In this document: positions 5,275 to 25,946 of the stretch, one piece after another
How the letters are laid out: every line of letters begins with the position of its first letter
Position numbering within the stretch: the stretch's first letter is position 1
IMG/VR virus record: IMGVR_UViG_3300025732_002272
Coordinates: 1 to 35,011 of that record
Reading direction: 5' to 3' (one strand)
DNA: 35,011 nt
DNA from: a virus
Position numbers and translations under genes: made by a program
The notes under the pieces: model-generated
The model's database searches: none
What the model was told of the DNA's origin: nothing
Seen by the model: only the letters and a program-made list of their open reading frames with translations

Positions 5275-5629
5275 CTATTACGTTATGCCAGGACTTATGA
5301 GAGATAAAACATTCAAAACACACGATGCCGTAACACTTGTTTGCGATAGATTAGGCATAACCCACAGAGAGCTAGTTAGCCCATCTAGGAGTCGCAAGTT
5401 AGCACAAGCTAGAAACATCTGTTACGCTTTAATTAGAGAGCATTCCTTTACCACATTAGTAGAAACAGGGCAATACTTCAAGCGTGACCACACTACCGTT
5501 ATACATGGCTTAAATATGCACAATAACGATATGAAGTTACTAGATGGATATGCCGAACGCTACGAGTCTATTAAATTCGAACTTAACACAATAACCTCAA
5601 ACAAAAAAAACACCAATTATGTCAAGTGA
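5246..5629 (+). CDS. Stand-alone DnaA domain IV protein
   Basis: This 127-residue protein is essentially the C-terminal DNA-binding domain of DnaA. It has VCDRLGITHRELVSPSRSRK, the conserved KLAQARNICYALIRE helix, and the signature RDHTTVIHG, which contacts the DnaA box in bacterial DnaA. The AAA+ ATPase domain is absent, so it can bind DNA but not form the ATP-driven initiator filament. It could mark the phage origin, recruit host DnaA, or compete for host DnaA boxes. The ATGs at 5246, 5255 and 5285 are all possible; the longest is given. It overlaps both neighbouring genes slightly. Confidence 0.85.
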   Translation: MPSMNTKKINYYVMPGLMRDKTFKTHDAVTLVCDRLGITHRELVSPSRSRKLAQARNICYALIREHSFTTLVETGQYFKRDHTTVIHGLNMHNNDMKLLDGYAERYESIKFELNTITSNKKNTNYVK

Positions 5630-5825
5630 TTTTTCAAACTGGTCCGAGCAAGAACAAAGATTGTTTATTGCTAAAGTGATCCACAACATCAACTACTCAC
5701 AAAGTAGTTTAGAAATGATGCAAAGCATCGTAAACTTTTGGGATGAACACCCCATTAGACAAGCCGTATTTTTTACCAATAACTTAAAAACCCAAAACAC
5801 CTTACAGTATGGAACTTCAAACTAA
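5619..5825 (+). CDS. Small hypothetical protein (68 aa)
   Basis: A 68-residue, helical, mildly acidic protein (SNWSEQEQRLFIAKVIHNINYSQ...). It overlaps the DnaA-like gene by 11 bases and the next gene by 17 bases, so it is probably translationally coupled. Position between a DnaA-like protein and a putative DNA-annealing protein hints at a replication accessory role, but the sequence itself shows no domain. Confidence 0.55.
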   Translation: MSSDFSNWSEQEQRLFIAKVIHNINYSQSSLEMMQSIVNFWDEHPIRQAVFFTNNLKTQNTLQYGTSN

Positions 5826-6477
5826 ACCCAAATTTGATATTGTCAATGCAGAATCCATGCTTGACCTATCTAAAGATTTATCAAGATTAATTAAGGAAAA
5901 AGGATTATCCTCTAATATCCAAGGCAAACAATTCGTCAACGTTGAAGGTTGGCAATTTGCTGGGGCTTCCTTAGGACTGATGCCGATTATCACAGAAACT
6001 ACGGATATGTCCAAGGAGGATGAAATTAGATACCAAGCTAAGTGCGAAGTGCGTAACATTACCACAGGTCAGCTTATGGCAGTAGGTATCGCTTTATGCT
6101 CTAATAAGGAAAAAACCAAGCGTTATTTTGATGAGTATGCTATCCTATCTATGGCACAAACTAGAGCCATTGGTAAAGCATATAGAAACCTTTTAGCCTG
6201 GTTAATGAAAGCTGCTGGATTTGAGGCGACACCTGCTGAAGAAATGGACTTCGCTAAGGATGATACCCCTAAAAAACCCCATGTGGTTGAAGTGGTAGCC
6301 GAGGAGATTCCTATTGAAATCGACAGAACTAAATTGATTAAGGATATTACTGCGGTTACTAGGATGAAAGACTTAACCGAAATATTTTTTGCACATAAAG
6401 AGTACATCGAAAGTGATGAAGCCTTAATGATGCTTATGAAAAGTAAAAAAGATTCACTTACAAGTAAAAAGAAATAA
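5809..6477 (+). CDS. Putative DNA-annealing or recombination protein
   Basis: This protein has 222 residues. The core (residues about 40-145) has the pattern VEGWQFAGASLGLMP ... YAILSMAQTRAIGKAYR ... AAGFEATPAEEM, found in many phage proteins encoded in replication and recombination clusters. I associate it loosely with single-strand annealing (Erf/Rad52-like) proteins. The W...G..LG and AQTRA motifs are the strongest features. A charged C-terminal tail ends in a run of lysines. The following gene fits a partner of the same cluster. The exact family is not certain and no biochemical role is shown. Confidence 0.5.
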   Translation: MELQTKPKFDIVNAESMLDLSKDLSRLIKEKGLSSNIQGKQFVNVEGWQFAGASLGLMPIITETTDMSKEDEIRYQAKCEVRNITTGQLMAVGIALCSNKEKTKRYFDEYAILSMAQTRAIGKAYRNLLAWLMKAAGFEATPAEEMDFAKDDTPKKPHVVEVVAEEIPIEIDRTKLIKDITAVTRMKDLTEIFFAHKEYIESDEALMMLMKSKKDSLTSKKK

Positions 6478-6943: not shown

Positions 6944-7230
6944 TACACCAATTAAAAAATACCATTGATGTATTAACCCCTTTAGGATATGGAAAAGCCA
7001 TCGCATGGATTGATTACGGAACTGATACAAACACCATATGGAAAGTGGTGTGTTACAAAACAGGTAGAGTGCGTAATTTTTACGATGACGACATTCTCGT
7101 GTATCCCAACTCCATGGATGGTGGGGAAATAGATGAGAATTATTTTTCTAAAAGGGATTTTCATGAAACCAATCAATCATTTATTAAAGGACTAAAAAAC
7201 CATTTTAAACCAACTGAAGATGCCAGGTGA
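6940..7230 (+). CDS. Small conserved phage protein (96 aa)
   Basis: This protein has 96 residues. The pattern VLTPLGYGKAIAWIDYG...NTIWKVVCYKTGRVRNFYDDDI resembles small phage proteins with an SH3-like or beta-barrel domain of unknown role. It overlaps the gene before (ATGA) and the gene after (11 bases). Function is unknown. Confidence 0.6.
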   Translation: MIHQLKNTIDVLTPLGYGKAIAWIDYGTDTNTIWKVVCYKTGRVRNFYDDDILVYPNSMDGGEIDENYFSKRDFHETNQSFIKGLKNHFKPTEDAR

Positions 7231-7435
7231 GATTAAAGGATTAGAAAACTCAGTACCCATAAGAATGGTATATACTGATACTAGAGAAGAAGTTATTTTT
7301 AAATCAGCAGCATTAGCTAGTCGTAAGACTAAAATATCTGCTCAGGTAATAAGAGAATCACTTAACCCATTAGCTCGTAAGAGATTCATAGTGGAAAATA
7401 GAAAGGTGGTTTTTAGGATTGCTAAAGAAGTTTAG
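7220..7435 (+). CDS. Small protein with a NUMOD1-like pattern
   Basis: This protein has 71 residues. DTREEVIFKSAALASRKTKISAQVIRESLNPL resembles the small DNA-binding modules (NUMOD1-like) found attached to homing endonucleases: a strand, then a helix-turn-helix. It lies just before the leader RNA and the HNH gene and could be a detached DNA-recognition part, but it may be unrelated. It ends two bases before the promoter -7 box of the leader RNA. Confidence 0.45.
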   Translation: MPGEIKGLENSVPIRMVYTDTREEVIFKSAALASRKTKISAQVIRESLNPLARKRFIVENRKVVFRIAKEV

Positions 7436-7443
7436 TATATTTG
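7436..7443 (+). promoter_or_regulatory. Promoter -7 box for the leader RNA and HNH gene
   Basis: TATATTTG matches the Bacteroidota TAnnTTTG element exactly and predicts a start near 7448-7450, at the first base of the first hairpin. No well-spaced -33 TTG is seen; the nearest (7419-7421) is only 14 bases away. It lies immediately after the upstream stop codon. Confidence 0.5.
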
Positions 7444-7447
7444 CTTT

Positions 7448-7530
7448 GTCATGGACGAGATGACATTTTAAAAATTTTAGCCCAAAGAGGCGTTGGTACT
7501 CGTCCTACCAGCAAATCTGAGGGCATTTTT
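7448..7530 (+). ncRNA. Structured leader RNA with predicted kissing loop
   Basis: Hairpin A is GTCAT (7448-7452), loop GGACGAG (7453-7459), ATGAC (7460-7464). Hairpin B is GTTGGTA (7492-7498), loop CTCGTCC (7499-7505), TACCAGC (7506-7512), with one G-U pair. The two 7-base loops are perfect complements, so the hairpins can join by loop-loop pairing. GCCC (7480-7483) can pair with GGGC (7521-7524), which is followed by ATTTTTATTTT, a possible weak terminator. The HNH start codon lies 12 bases further on. The region has no long ORF. It could be a riboregulator of the HNH gene or a free small RNA. Confidence 0.55.
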
Positions 7531-7535
7531 ATTTT

Positions 7536-7934
7536 ATGAGCTATAGCTTAAAACTAAAAGATCCAAGGTGGCAAAAAAAACGCCTTGAGATATTAGACAG
7601 AGATCAATTTACTTGCACAAAATGCGGAGATGATGAAACAGAATTACACGTGCATCATCATTATTATGTTTATAACAAAGAATTATGGGATTATGACGAT
7701 AATGCACTATCTACTTTGTGTACTTCATGTCATCGCATAGAAACCGAAAGAATAAATATTGTAAAAGAATATTTACGTGGTTATAGATATGATAGATTAA
7801 AACATTTATCTCATATAATTGTATGTGGAAGTTGTTTTAATGAATTAGAATTAAAAGAAATAACTAAAAAATGCACTGAAATATTAGATAGAAAAGGTAT
7901 TGAATGGGAATATATAAATGAAAATGATAAATAA
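7536..7934 (+). CDS. HNH endonuclease
   Basis: This protein has 132 residues. It has the standard HNH layout: WQKKRLEILDRDQFTCTKCG with the first CxxC zinc pair, HVHHHYYV carrying the catalytic histidines, and CTSCH with the second CxxC pair. Another C..C pair (CGSC) lies near residue 90. It is probably a free-standing homing or nicking-type endonuclease, although some HNH proteins act with terminases. It has its own leader RNA and overlaps the next gene by 17 bases. The gene and its two followers are noticeably more AT-rich than DnaB, which fits separate acquisition. Confidence 0.88.
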   Translation: MSYSLKLKDPRWQKKRLEILDRDQFTCTKCGDDETELHVHHHYYVYNKELWDYDDNALSTLCTSCHRIETERINIVKEYLRGYRYDRLKHLSHIIVCGSCFNELELKEITKKCTEILDRKGIEWEYINENDK

Positions 7935-8565
7935 AATGAATACAGGAAGAATTGAAAAACAAGAGGTTGAAGATAATTATGCCAAACTTCCTAATGATAT
8001 TTGTCAATCTAAGGATTTAACTCTTGAACAAAAAGGATTAATGGCGTTTCTTTTAAGTTTACCAAAAAACTGGGTTGTTTATAAAGATAATTTACATGAG
8101 TTATTAGGTGATAAAAAAAATAAAGTTGATTTAGCTTTTAAAGGGTTACAAAAAGCGGGTTATATTTTATCATATAAAGTAGTTAACGAAAAGGGGCATT
8201 TTAAAGGTTGGAATCATATAGTTTATGCGATTCCAGATTTTGCTAACCGACATCAAGAAAATCCGACATCGGTTTTATCCGAGATCGGGGAAACTACCCC
8301 TATACAAAGAAACAATACTGTATTAGATAATATATCTTATACAAAAAAGAAGTTTATAGCTCCTACTTTAGATGAAGTTATTTTGTATTTTAAAGAAAAT
8401 GGATATAAAGATGATGTAGCTAGAAAAGCATTTAATTTTTATAATACTGCTGATTGGCAAGATACTCAAGGTAGACAAGTTAAAAACTGGAAACAAAAGA
8501 TGATTGGAGTATGGTTTAAGGATGAAAACAAAATTTCACAACAAGTTAAAATACGAGTAAAATGA
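7918..8565 (+). CDS. Replication initiator or helicase-loader type protein
   Basis: This protein has 215 residues. Residues about 18-100 form a winged helix (LPNDICQSKDLTLEQKGLMAFLLSLP...) of the kind at the front of phage replication proteins (HTH_36/RepA-N like). A linker follows, then a C-terminal helical module, PTLDEVILYFKENGY ... FYNTADWQDTQGR, typical of DnaD-like or lambda O-like proteins placed before DnaB. The likely role is to bind the phage origin and help load the helicase. The start could be 7918, 7924 or 7936 (MNTGRIEK), the last avoiding overlap with the HNH gene. Confidence 0.75.
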   Translation: MKMINKMNTGRIEKQEVEDNYAKLPNDICQSKDLTLEQKGLMAFLLSLPKNWVVYKDNLHELLGDKKNKVDLAFKGLQKAGYILSYKVVNEKGHFKGWNHIVYAIPDFANRHQENPTSVLSEIGETTPIQRNNTVLDNISYTKKKFIAPTLDEVILYFKENGYKDDVARKAFNFYNTADWQDTQGRQVKNWKQKMIGVWFKDENKISQQVKIRVK

Positions 8566-8798
8566 CACCCAAAGAAAAAGCAGAAGAATTATTGAGTAAA
8601 TATACTTCAATTACACTAAAAGAAGTTCAACCTGGAATATTTTTAGCATTTAATCATGAATTATGTAAAAAATTTGCATTAATAGCAGTAGATGAAATGA
8701 TAAAAATGTATAATGAAATGAATGTAAATGGGTTTTTAAAACCTAATTCAGTTGGATTTATAATTAATGATGTTAAAAACGAAATAGAAAAATTATAA
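8562..8798 (+). CDS. Small conserved phage protein (78 aa)
   Basis: A 78-residue helical protein starting MTPKEKAEELLSKY, with the pattern LCKKFALIAVDEMIK. This is a common small phage protein in Bacteroidota with no known role. It overlaps the gene before by 4 bases and shares one base with the DnaB start (TAATG), so it is co-translated with the helicase. Confidence 0.65.
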   Translation: MTPKEKAEELLSKYTSITLKEVQPGIFLAFNHELCKKFALIAVDEMIKMYNEMNVNGFLKPNSVGFIINDVKNEIEKL

Positions 8799-10129
8799 TG
8801 CAAGTCATAGACCTACCTAAAAACATAGAAGTAGAAAGGAATATCCTAGGTTCACTACTGATAGACAAAAAGTCTTTATCATTGGTAATCAACTACTTAA
8901 AAGAGGATATATTTTATGACTATAAGCACCAACTGGTGTTTAGAGTTATAAAGGATATGTACGATAAGAATATTCAAATAGACTTAACTACTGTATTCCA
9001 AAGATTAGTAGATAGTAAACAAACGGATCAAGTAAACGCTTATTACTTATCTGAGTTAACTAAAGATGTGGTAACAACTGCTCACCTAAACACCCATATA
9101 GAGTTAATAATAGAATTATACAAGCGTAGAGTCTTGGTCGAGATGGGCAGGGAACTCGTGAATGGGGCGGTTGGCGGTCAGGTAGAAACCATAGACTTTA
9201 TGGCTGAGATGAGTAAAAAACTGATTCAACTCCAAGAGTATGGCAATATCTACGAAAAAATGATGGAGGATATTATTTTATCCATCAATTATTCTCGTGA
9301 TATGGCTCAAAAAGGGGATTTATTGGGCTATAACACAGGTTTTAATGAGCTAAATAATACCTTATGTGGTTGGGTTAAACCTGACCTAGTAATCGTAGCT
9401 GCAAGACCTGGAATGGGTAAGACAGCCTTTATGCTTTCTAGTATCTACCAACTAGCTTGTGTAAATAACGTTTCTACGGCTGTTTTTAGCCTTGAAATGA
9501 GCTCCGAGCAGTTAGTTGAAAGGTTAGAGTCAATCAGCTCAGAACTGCCCTTAAAATGGCTTAGAATGAATAATTTGGATGATAGCCAAAGAAAGATACT
9601 TTTAAAGACAGATGACTTGTTATTAACTTCCCCCATACATATTGAAGATATGGGCGGTATAAGTGTAACCCAACTCAGAGCCAAAGCCACCATTTTGAAA
9701 CAAAAGTATGGAATCAAGGTAATCTTTATAGACTACCTCCAACTTATGAGTGGAACAGGAAAATCAAACCAAAACAGAGAGCAAGAGGTCAGCTACATAA
9801 GTAGAAGCCTAAAAGCCCTAGCCAAAGAGTTGGAAGTGCCTATTATCGCCCTATCTCAATTATCTCGTAGGGTAGAAGAAAGGGCAGATAAGATGCCTCA
9901 ATTATCTGATTTAAGGGAATCAGGATCAATAGAACAAGACGCAGATGCGGTTATTATGCTTATGCGACCTGCTTACTATGAGATGACTGAAGCTATTGAA
10001 ATAGGAGGCAAAGAATATTCTCCAAGGGATTTAGTGGTATGTAAGGTGGAGAAGAATCGTCATGGACAAACGAAGAATATAGCATTAAGATTTTTACCTG
10101 AAACAATGAAATTTGAAGATTATGATTAA
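8798..10129 (+). CDS. dnaB: Replicative DNA helicase
   Basis: This 443-residue, full-length DnaB-family protein unwinds DNA ahead of the fork. The N-terminal helical domain (LPKNIEVERNILGSLL) is intact. The RecA-like ATPase has Walker A ARPGMGKTA, the VFSLEMSSEQL motif, Walker B IFIDYLQLM, LSQLSRRVE, and the arginine-rich LRESGSIEQDAD. It lies after the initiator-type gene, as in many phages, so loader and helicase are co-expressed. No truncation or intein is seen. Its base composition is less AT-rich than that of the three genes before it. Confidence 0.97.
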   Translation: MQVIDLPKNIEVERNILGSLLIDKKSLSLVINYLKEDIFYDYKHQLVFRVIKDMYDKNIQIDLTTVFQRLVDSKQTDQVNAYYLSELTKDVVTTAHLNTHIELIIELYKRRVLVEMGRELVNGAVGGQVETIDFMAEMSKKLIQLQEYGNIYEKMMEDIILSINYSRDMAQKGDLLGYNTGFNELNNTLCGWVKPDLVIVAARPGMGKTAFMLSSIYQLACVNNVSTAVFSLEMSSEQLVERLESISSELPLKWLRMNNLDDSQRKILLKTDDLLLTSPIHIEDMGGISVTQLRAKATILKQKYGIKVIFIDYLQLMSGTGKSNQNREQEVSYISRSLKALAKELEVPIIALSQLSRRVEERADKMPQLSDLRESGSIEQDADAVIMLMRPAYYEMTEAIEIGGKEYSPRDLVVCKVEKNRHGQTKNIALRFLPETMKFEDYD

Positions 10130-12297: not shown

Positions 12298-12328
12298 CCC
12301 TCACCCTTAAATAAGGTGGGGGTTTTTT
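12298..12328 (+). terminator. Intrinsic terminator of the early block
   Basis: The stem is CCCTCACC with GGTGGGGG (8 pairs, one G-U) around an AT-rich loop that can extend the pairing. It is followed by six T's at 12323-12328. It lies directly after the last rightward gene. Confidence 0.85.
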
Positions 12329-12377
12329 ATAATAAAGAAGCCCAGGTAGAAACCCAGGCTTGATTTTCCTTTATTAT
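12329..12377. repeat. Intergenic hairpin between convergent terminators
   Basis: ATAATAAAG (12329-12337) and CTTTATTAT (12369-12377) pair perfectly and enclose AAGCC/GGCTT and two copies of CCCAGG. The function is unknown. It separates the two terminators in a 213-base stretch without genes. Confidence 0.45.
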
Positions 12378-23931: not shown

Positions 23932-25946
23932 TATGCTAAACTAATGTTTTGTCCTTTAAGATTTGATGCCTTTTGTGCTCTGTTTACAGACAAAAGTAAG
24001 TCTTGTCCTCTTAATAAGAATGTTCCACCGCTTCCCCCTCCTATTAAATTTTTAAGTTTGTCTAAAGGAGCAACAACTTCAGGGTTGTTTTTAGCACCAG
24101 GATATTCACCCATTAATCCGTATGTAGGTCCGCTAATAATACCACCATCTGCAAATCTTTTTGCAGGATTGGATGATTTACCCATTGATGGACTACTTCC
24201 TGACGCACCTGTATTGCCTAGTGAATTTTTAAGAGCATAACCTGCTGCTATTGCTGCAATACCTATAACAATACCTGCTTTCCATTCACCTTTTTCAAGA
24301 GCAGCCTTTGCAGCTTTTACTAACGAAGAATACATCACAAGAGCCTTACCAATTTCTATAAGAGCATCTGCCAATATTCCTGCCAATGAATCAAAGCTTA
24401 AACTTCCTTTTGATATTAAATTTCCTAAAGTTTCTCCAACTGATTCAAACCCCTTTACTAATGTATTTTTTAATATTTCATTAATAGTAGTCGATACAGT
24501 TCCTAATCCTTCTAATTCAGACTTATATTTTTTAATTGATTCAATAATGACATTGGTTGCTTTTTCGTTTCCATTAGCAAATACCAATGCAAATTGAAGC
24601 ATTTTTATTTTTTGATTTATGTCATCTTGTTGCAAAGAAGTATTATCCTTATGTCTTTTCATCTCAATTTTTAATTGAGCATCTAGTATTTTGGTATAAT
24701 TCTTAGCATATTCTACTTGAGCATCATAAATGTCTTTGTTATATTGATCTGTTAATTGTTTTTGTCTTTGAGCACTTTGCTGTCTTATTCTTAATTTTTG
24801 ATTTTCAACACCTTGTAAAAGAGTAAGTTCTTTAAATCTGTATGTTTGATTTATATTATCTAAAACTTCTTTACTAGCTCCATTTATTTCAGCTTCTTTT
24901 AAGGCAACTCTTTTTTCTTCTTCAATCATTAATTTGCCATAATAACCAGCCAAAAACAAATTGTCTTTATAATAATCGTATTGTGCAGTAAGTTTTTCTA
25001 ATAAAGATTTGTCTACTTTTTCTTTACCTACTTTATCGCTTTTATCACCAAATGGATTTAACAAAGAAGATTTTACAGCCCCTTCATTAAGGTCTTGAAG
25101 CCTTCTTATAAATCCTTCAGTTTGTATTATCTTATTTTGTAACTTTTGTGCATCAGAATCTGTTATACCTAAAAAGTCTAATGGATGTATTTCTCTTTTT
25201 GATTTAGCTGATTCAATCTCTAAAGCATTTCTATCCTCTATAACCTGCATTTGAAGTTCTGCTATTTTTTTACCAGTAACTTCGGCTAATTGCTGAGCTC
25301 TTAATGCTTCTGTATAAAGATTTACAGAAATAATAGCTTGACCTATATTTTTTATTCTATCGGCTTCCTCTTTATTTACTTTAGATAAATCTTCTTTTAT
25401 TTCTTTTAAAGCTTTAGACCTAAGACTTTCCGCATTTGTGTAATTTGTAGCAATAGATATAAGACTTTGAAGTTTAGATATTTCTTGATTAGAATAATCT
25501 AAAGTTCCTTTTATTTCATCGTTAGTTTTTTTAATACTTTCTCTCCATGCGTCTGTTGCATTTTTCGCACCAAAAGCACCCATATCCCAAGCTGTGAAAA
25601 AAGCAATAACAGCACTACCTACAAAATAAAGTGGTCCAGCAATACCTGCAATACTTCCCATAAGAGCAGGTAAGTTATTTTGAATACCTCTAAAACCAAA
25701 TGGTAAATCTTGAATAACTAATGCCAAGTTTGTCCATTGTTGGTTGTTCTTTTTTAAAGCATCTGTAGAACTATTAAAAACTCCACTTGTGTTATTAAGA
25801 CCAGCACCAATAGACTTTATTTTGCCTGAAGTTATTTCTGCTTGTTTACCAATATCCTGAAGGGATTTTTGTACGGCATCTGATACTGCTTTGAAATCAT
25901 CGGCATTCGCCTGAATCCGAATTTTAACTATTTCTTCACTTGCCAT
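23931..25946 (-). CDS. Tail tape measure protein
   Basis: This protein has 671 residues. An N-terminal helical coat-contact region (VKIRIQANADDFKAV...) is followed by a hydrophobic stretch (PALMGSIAGIAGPLYFVGSAVIAFF) and long coiled coils (residues about 150-460). A Gly-rich, membrane-active region (IVIGIAAIAAGYALK) and a short Gly/Ser tail follow. It sets tail length and probably enters the host envelope. At about 0.15 nm per residue it predicts a tail near 100 nm. It follows the chaperone pair, as expected. Confidence 0.9.
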   Translation of the reverse strand: MASEEIVKIRIQANADDFKAVSDAVQKSLQDIGKQAEITSGKIKSIGAGLNNTSGVFNSSTDALKKNNQQWTNLALVIQDLPFGFRGIQNNLPALMGSIAGIAGPLYFVGSAVIAFFTAWDMGAFGAKNATDAWRESIKKTNDEIKGTLDYSNQEISKLQSLISIATNYTNAESLRSKALKEIKEDLSKVNKEEADRIKNIGQAIISVNLYTEALRAQQLAEVTGKKIAELQMQVIEDRNALEIESAKSKREIHPLDFLGITDSDAQKLQNKIIQTEGFIRRLQDLNEGAVKSSLLNPFGDKSDKVGKEKVDKSLLEKLTAQYDYYKDNLFLAGYYGKLMIEEEKRVALKEAEINGASKEVLDNINQTYRFKELTLLQGVENQKLRIRQQSAQRQKQLTDQYNKDIYDAQVEYAKNYTKILDAQLKIEMKRHKDNTSLQQDDINQKIKMLQFALVFANGNEKATNVIIESIKKYKSELEGLGTVSTTINEILKNTLVKGFESVGETLGNLISKGSLSFDSLAGILADALIEIGKALVMYSSLVKAAKAALEKGEWKAGIVIGIAAIAAGYALKNSLGNTGASGSSPSMGKSSNPAKRFADGGIISGPTYGLMGEYPGAKNNPEVVAPLDKLKNLIGGGSGGTFLLRGQDLLLSVNRAQKASNLKGQNISLA

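Follow-up and report, generated by a model that had tools for sequence, protein, structure and literature searches.

A predicted kissing-loop leader RNA at the head of replication operons in tailed phages of probable Bacteroidota hosts

Fully complementary hairpin loops can form a kissing helix, as the 7-nt loops of ColE1 RNAI/RNAII and TAR/TAR* do. In the Rep leaders of IncI and IncB plasmids (repZ), a loop-loop pseudoknot switches translation on, in competition with an antisense RNA. The put RNA of phage HK022 opens an early transcript with two hairpins, which to our knowledge neither kiss nor run into a U-tract and an AUG. Among phage genes with regulated leaders, T4 gene 32 carries an H-type pseudoknot 67 nt upstream of its AUG and is subject to translational autorepression by gp32, and inhibitory leader hairpins of I-TevI, Aeh1 mobE and T4 segB sequester the ribosome-binding site (RBS) or AUG in a simple helix (PMC3014915). 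Kissing loops, as well as regulated leaders of phage replication genes and homing endonucleases, are already known. In the open-access literature searched, we found nothing on the leader described here, and no leader that joins an intramolecular kissing loop to a terminator-like stem at a start codon.

The window analysed here, the whole 35,011-nucleotide stretch of the IMG/VR record IMGVR_UViG_3300025732_002272 (positions 1 to 35,011), contains such an element at 7448-7535 on the + strand. Hairpin 1 (7448-7464), at the predicted 5' end of the RNA, consists of the stem GTCAT (7448-7452)/ATGAC (7460-7464) and the loop GGACGAG (7453-7459). A 15-nt linker (7465-7479), here with TAAAAATTTTA, a AAAACTTATT-like motif, leads to a terminator-like stem (7480-7524) around hairpin 2, with outer GCCC (7480-7483)/GGGC (7521-7524) and inner AGA (7486-7488)/TCT (7516-7518) pairs and with the internal loops AA/GA and GGC/AAA (7489-7491 with 7513-7515). 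Hairpin 2 (7492-7512) has the stem GTTGGTA (7492-7498)/TACCAGC (7506-7512) and the loop CTCGTCC (7499-7505), the exact 7-base reverse complement of loop 1 and its predicted kissing partner. From the outer stem to the start codon, which lies 11 nt past it, runs the U-tract ATTTTTATTTT, arranged as A-TTTTT-A-TTTT (7525-7535). A preliminary description of this DNA had reported the two hairpins with perfectly complementary loops, which are evident in the sequence and recur in RNAfold, where both are present in the minimum free energy (MFE) and centroid structures (-25.3 kcal/mol, z = -2.82; 2 of 200 shuffled controls reached this stability). The same description had delimited the region as 7448-7512 and set its end 12 bases before an HNH endonuclease gene; it missed the outer stem and the U-tract, and hairpin 2 in fact ends 23 nt before the ATG at 7536. 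The kissing helix has a computed duplex energy of about -7 to -11 kcal/mol, and fold and covariation together indicate a pair of kissing hairpins in place of an H-type pseudoknot. A longer fold leaves the AUG unpaired and pairs the A-rich linker partly with the U-tract. Neither single-sequence nor consensus folds contained a mutually exclusive antiterminator fold, which protein-controlled attenuators do not require.

Relatives were collected from IMG/VR. A scan with the HNH protein and two DNA patterns yielded a first alignment in which compensatory changes were visible, and a broader pattern, with no constraint on hairpin 2 or its loop, gave 65 distinct type-A elements, one further chance match (L420) having been taken out. 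Divergent members were found with the covariance model R1 and a structure-based scan, and two more patterns added others. At least about 200 contigs (about 107 distinct sequences) share the architecture; at least 214 pattern instances on 209 contig stretches correspond to 113 distinct sequences, where some stretches share one contig and instance counts are approximate and mostly lower bounds. An automatic test recognised two hairpins with exactly complementary loops in 103 of these 113. Four of the remaining 10 are GC-rich chance matches; in L360, which failed the test, the element ends at the contig edge, and in L267, L305, L538 and L564 the loops are complementary, with a stem too short or irregular for the script. 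The tenth, a copy in L559 (13870-13974, - strand), has lost the promoter and 5' hairpin and kept the terminator-like part, by either natural deletion or chimeric assembly. Run over both strands of the viral loci (5.8 Mb), the structure-based scan found the family again, and the same scan of 0.98 Mb of shuffled sequence returned no matches; this null, together with pairing kept by covariation, argues that the paired architecture is not due to chance.

Neither the window nor 11 relatives had a match above the gathering threshold in Rfam 15, the weak E-value matches being all far below the gathering score and to unrelated families only. BLASTN searches of named phages and plasmids, with the region as query, gave only short chance matches or none. 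A loose pattern scan of genome contigs gave chance matches in GC-rich genomes. The models R1 and R2 and a DNA pattern found no match in 395-genome draws from the phylum and class of a Cytophagales metagenome-assembled genome, or in four further genomes; these draws are samples and the model searches applied strict filters, which leaves room for prophage copies. Within the window itself, a match at 24582-24615 was rejected (inside an open reading frame and missed by the covariance model), as were weak antisense covariance-model matches, which palindromic stems explain. According to whole-record searches, most records carry one leader copy and a few carry two with different loop codes. Second leaders with a different kissing code occur in L350 (1947-2048), L123 (3921-4025) and L093 (6263-6367, - strand), where they precede an ABC ATPase-like protein (phrog_11143) or a NUMOD4-HNH endonuclease.

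The evidence for the structure comes from covariation. The type-A alignment A1 (59 sequences) has 94.9% of its cells paired and double-sided changes at 19 of 27 pairs, with a covariation score of 0.493 against 0.044-0.101 for slid controls (32-44% paired), and none of 500 shuffles reached the observed paired fraction or covariation score. Compensatory double changes affect all 5-6 stem pairs of hairpin 1 in relatives and 6 of the 7 stem pairs of hairpin 2 in A1; in the kissing helix they affect 5 of 7 pairs in A1 and 6 of 7 in the divergent set A3 (40 sequences). A3 is 92.5% paired overall and 96.8% paired in the kissing helix, with a covariation score of 0.695 against at most 0.166 for slid controls; it is the fair test, as the alignment A2 mis-registers two loop-swapped subtypes and hence gives per-pair kissing counts that are too low. 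The outer GCCC/GGGC is invariant in A1, partly because the search pattern demanded those four pairs, and reads GGGC/GCCC, GGGA/TCCC, GGCTC/GAGCC or AGGCT/AGCCT in divergent types. Since the aligned sequences are related and their changes not independent, the number of loop codes is sturdier evidence than the change counts: an automatic listing gave 16 distinct, exactly complementary codes among 103 distinct elements, and L564 contributes a seventeenth (CTCTAAC/GTTAGAG). Loops 1 and 2 are fully swapped between two subtypes (ATGCGAC/GTCGCAT versus GTCGCAT/ATGCGAC), and one subgroup has 6-nt loops (CCGTAC/GTACGG). One stem-2 pair is UG on the + strand in 54 of the 59 A1 sequences, and such G-U wobbles, legal only in RNA of that strand, favour a + strand RNA over DNA or antisense. 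The preliminary description had stated that compensatory changes across the two stems and the two loops would support the element; A1, A3 and the loop codes show such changes, and the leader covaries as an intramolecular kissing-loop RNA with a predicted contact of the RNAI/RNAII type should. From these comparisons it is nearly certain that the kissing-loop structure of the leader is real and under selection. Outside the consensus stems, the linker motif AAAACTTATT (window 7469-7479) is nearly invariant in most types; the U-tract could be its pairing partner, or it could be a binding site for a protein or the ribosome. At one position of the internal loop GGC/AAA (7489-7491/7513-7515), G..A changes jointly to T..T in relatives, a hint that the two bases form a non-canonical pair and that a ligand or protein may bind there.

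A Bacteroidota -7 promoter box, TATATTTG (TAnnTTTG), lies at 7436-7443 on the + strand, and since the G of this box sits at -5 in F. johnsoniae (PMC6847099), the predicted +1 is 7448, the first base of stem 1, where the preliminary description had also placed the start. The box is present in all 63 type-A elements with script-resolved kissing loops, 2-5 nt before stem 1 in 53 cases and 9 nt before it in 10, and the linker measures 12-17 nt in relatives; the transcript should, on this evidence, begin at stem 1 or within a few bases. Three homing-endonuclease-like leaders, L492 (7408-7515), L560 (9693-9799, - strand) and L564 (13012-13118, - strand), have no obvious TAnnTTTG box and an apparently extended stem 1, and their kissing loops are still complementary.

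At the 3' end, all 65 type-A relatives have 6-7 T among the 8 bases past the stem, and their terminator-like hairpin averages -18.0 kcal/mol. A GC-rich stem followed directly by a U-tract, ahead of the first gene of an operon, is the arrangement of an attenuator, and the 3' end of the leader resembles the phage's own terminator GGGGGTTTTTTATAA near 12303-12333. A simple terminator scan made no call at the leader U-tract, and the outer stem is broken by internal loops, unlike a textbook terminator. The start context is reversed: the 65 leaders average 1.6 A and 9.5 T in 15 nt, whereas nearly all other gene starts in the window are A-rich and T-poor, and initiation in F. johnsoniae is promoted by A at -3, -6, -12 and -13 and by low structure (PMC6847099). 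An ATG opens a reading frame 9-13 nt past the stem in all 65 type-A elements, whatever the gene (in later, non-type-A types the ATG was part of the search pattern). For a pure attenuator this fixed start-codon distance would be unnecessary, which suggests a role in translation too; the outer stem and U-tract point to a terminator-like gate over simple RBS sequestration.

The genes behind the leader are diverse. In the window, the start codon belongs to an HNH endonuclease gene (7536-7934, + strand; PHROG HNH families, best 4.4e-13), followed on the same strand by a DnaD-like/replication initiation protein (7918-8565; PHROG matches, 92% identity to a protein of L323) and, in the same operon, by the DnaB replicative helicase (8798-10129; Pfam DnaB_C, 4.1e-87). 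Elsewhere, leaders precede Lin1244-like replication initiators, HTH_36/DnaD-like initiators, helicase loaders, a DNA methyltransferase, homing endonucleases (HNH, GIY-YIG-like, NUMOD4/NUMOD3) and an ABC ATPase-like protein. Wherever dnaB was found (53 of 53 instances), it shares the strand of the element and begins 626-1459 nt downstream; in another 95 instances no dnaB was seen, at least some of these being truncated stretches. In L323, the replication protein directly follows the leader without an HNH gene, from which it follows that the HNH gene was inserted here, or lost in L323, between leader and initiator; an exact-string check of the L323 junction gave no match, and the arrangement rests on the reading-frame survey and the 92% identity. 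The leader accordingly heads a replication operon (dnaB behind an initiator or helicase loader gene) and is not an HNH leader as such. The diversity of downstream genes rules out a single HNH-specific role, and no endonuclease-specific helix sequestering RBS or AUG was found, the leader being common to non-endonuclease genes. From the preliminary description of a kissing-loop leader of an HNH gene, the kissing-loop leader starting at a promoter stands, and the HNH link becomes secondary because, in phages that lack this HNH gene, the leader stands directly before unrelated replication initiators, before helicase loaders and before a DNA methyltransferase.

Upstream genes, in the window (7220-7435) and in relatives, are as variable as downstream ones: a small unassigned reading frame and, by eye, C-5 methylase-like, SSB-like and HTH-like ends. 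Amid this variation the leader stays conserved, at a junction prone to recombination. GC skew turns from negative to positive at 5500-6300, within co-directional genes about 1.5 kb upstream of the leader, possibly an origin region or a recombination boundary. The contig ends (1-170 and 34843-35011) form a 169-base direct repeat with 97.6% identity; the genome is probably near complete despite this imperfect repeat. The portal protein is closest to those of Cellulophaga phages (about 35% identity), and promoter type, start context and portal protein indicate that the host probably belongs to the Bacteroidota.

Our comparisons support a cis-acting 5' leader RNA in a family of Bacteroidota tailed phages, with a promoter near stem 1, a predicted loop-loop helix of 6-7 bp and a GC-rich outer stem with a U-tract behind it; termination, repression and a trigger are what we infer for its function. 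We favour, with a probability of about 0.5, a default-off gate in which attenuation and start-region occlusion would be combined and tertiary-locked by the loop-loop helix. The U-tract after the stem, the reversed start context and the pairing between linker and U-tract are what favour it. RNA polymerase leaving the promoter would transcribe the leader, and the 5' hairpin would form first; hairpin 1 would then capture the emerging loop of hairpin 2 and so lock the outer stem, and the polymerase would terminate at the U-tract. Transcripts that read through would be poorly translated, with a stable structure and a U-tract, partly paired to the linker, in the ribosome landing zone. For the gate to open, something would have to release the outer stem or the kissing helix; this trigger is probably a product of the phage or a state of infection that acts at the conserved internal loops. 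The genes behind the leader, such as replication initiators and homing endonucleases, may be costly when expressed early or in excess. We suggest only tentatively that termination and start-codon access are controlled at one site by a phage-specific class of kissing-loop RNA with a freely evolving code, a proposal we consider rather doubtful; if true, two leaders in one genome would stay independent, and in the strongest form of the proposal the leader would be a tertiary-structured ribosome-recruiting element in place of the normal Bacteroidota start signal.

Several other readings have to be weighed. Complementarity inherited without structural selection is practically untenable, refuted by the covariation: at least 16 codes are all complementary, and the loops are fully swapped between subtypes. 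The leader could instead activate translation, the kissing fold and U-tract positioning the ribosome on the downstream AUG in an IRES-like or standby-site-like manner in place of the A-rich Bacteroidota start signal. An AUG 9-13 nt past the stem ahead of unrelated genes, a start context anomalous for this phage and a U-tract that could bind bS1 are consistent with this reading. Yet stable structure at about -11 and the absence of A at -3/-12 count against initiation in F. johnsoniae (PMC6847099), the spacing between stem and AUG differs by several nucleotides, and termination accounts for a U-tract directly past a GC stem, so that we regard activation as unlikely. A hair less probable, by analogy with HK022 put, is a leader that binds its own RNA polymerase and makes it resist downstream terminators in the replication operon. 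A two-hairpin RNA at the extreme 5' end of a phage operon, present in single copy in most records and carrying conserved unpaired motifs (AAAACTTATT and the internal loops) that could contact a protein, would suit antitermination; a fold running directly into a U-tract and start codon is not known to be part of the put design, and single homing-endonuclease genes stand behind divergent copies.

An RNA that begins in a stem capped by the kissing fold might also be a 5' stabiliser that blocks 5'-end-dependent decay of the replication mRNA. The box-to-stem spacing, which sets +1 at stem 1 or within a few nucleotides, fits this function, which leaves the outer stem, U-tract and fixed AUG distance unexplained; moreover, the 9-nt class starts several nucleotides upstream and L492 and L560 lack the promoter box, and we hold stabilisation to be improbable. 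We give still less credence to a stand-alone, trans-acting small RNA with its own promoter and terminator, despite the promoter, the RNA length of about 85 nt and the terminator-like end. The start codon follows the U-tract so closely that there is no room for a second promoter, and the downstream gene therefore depends on read-through from the leader or from further upstream; freely varying loops imply no conserved trans target, and the two copies in L350, L123 and L093 carry different codes. A replication-origin element (primer RNA or structured origin) beside the initiator gene seems very improbable, slightly more so than the small RNA: the usual single copy per genome, always near dnaB where seen, and the GC-skew sign change near 5.5-6.3 kb inside a co-directional gene block are compatible with an origin, but extra copies sit before homing endonucleases and the G-U pairs indicate + strand RNA.

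Whatever its function, this is a structured RNA class without an Rfam entry that recurs in metagenomic phage contigs and heads DNA-replication genes. Bacteroidota have unusual promoters and non-Shine-Dalgarno starts, and little is known of RNA-based regulation in their phages. With so many loop codes occurring naturally, compensatory mutants are already at hand, and the codes may provide a set of orthogonal switches in a phylum for which genetic tools are scarce.

Compared with described systems, the leader shares complementary 7-nt loops with ColE1 RNAI/RNAII and TAR/TAR* (6-nt loops occur as well), but unlike RNAI/RNAII it has both hairpins in cis with a terminator-like stem, and no antisense RNA was seen. 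IncI/IncB repZ and other plasmid Rep leaders likewise have loop-loop pairing ahead of a replication initiator, although neither translation activation by a pseudoknot nor a competing antisense RNA was seen here and a search with the leader region gave no plasmid match. Like attenuators and terminator-type riboswitches, it combines a conserved structured part with a terminator-like stem in a 5' leader ahead of the first gene; it differs in that the outer stem encloses a kissing hairpin and no alternative antiterminator fold was found. T4 gene 32 is similar in combining a phage replication gene, a tertiary-structured 5' leader and an AU-rich start region after it, without the kissing hairpins or the GC stem and U-tract. 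The leaders of I-TevI, mobE and segB are likewise structured, precede phage homing endonucleases and are off by default, as proposed here, whereas our leader is a conserved kissing-loop module common to replication genes, with a promoter at its 5' end. With HK022 put it shares two hairpins at the start of a phage transcript; in contrast to put, its hairpins are predicted to kiss and lead into a U-tract and an AUG.
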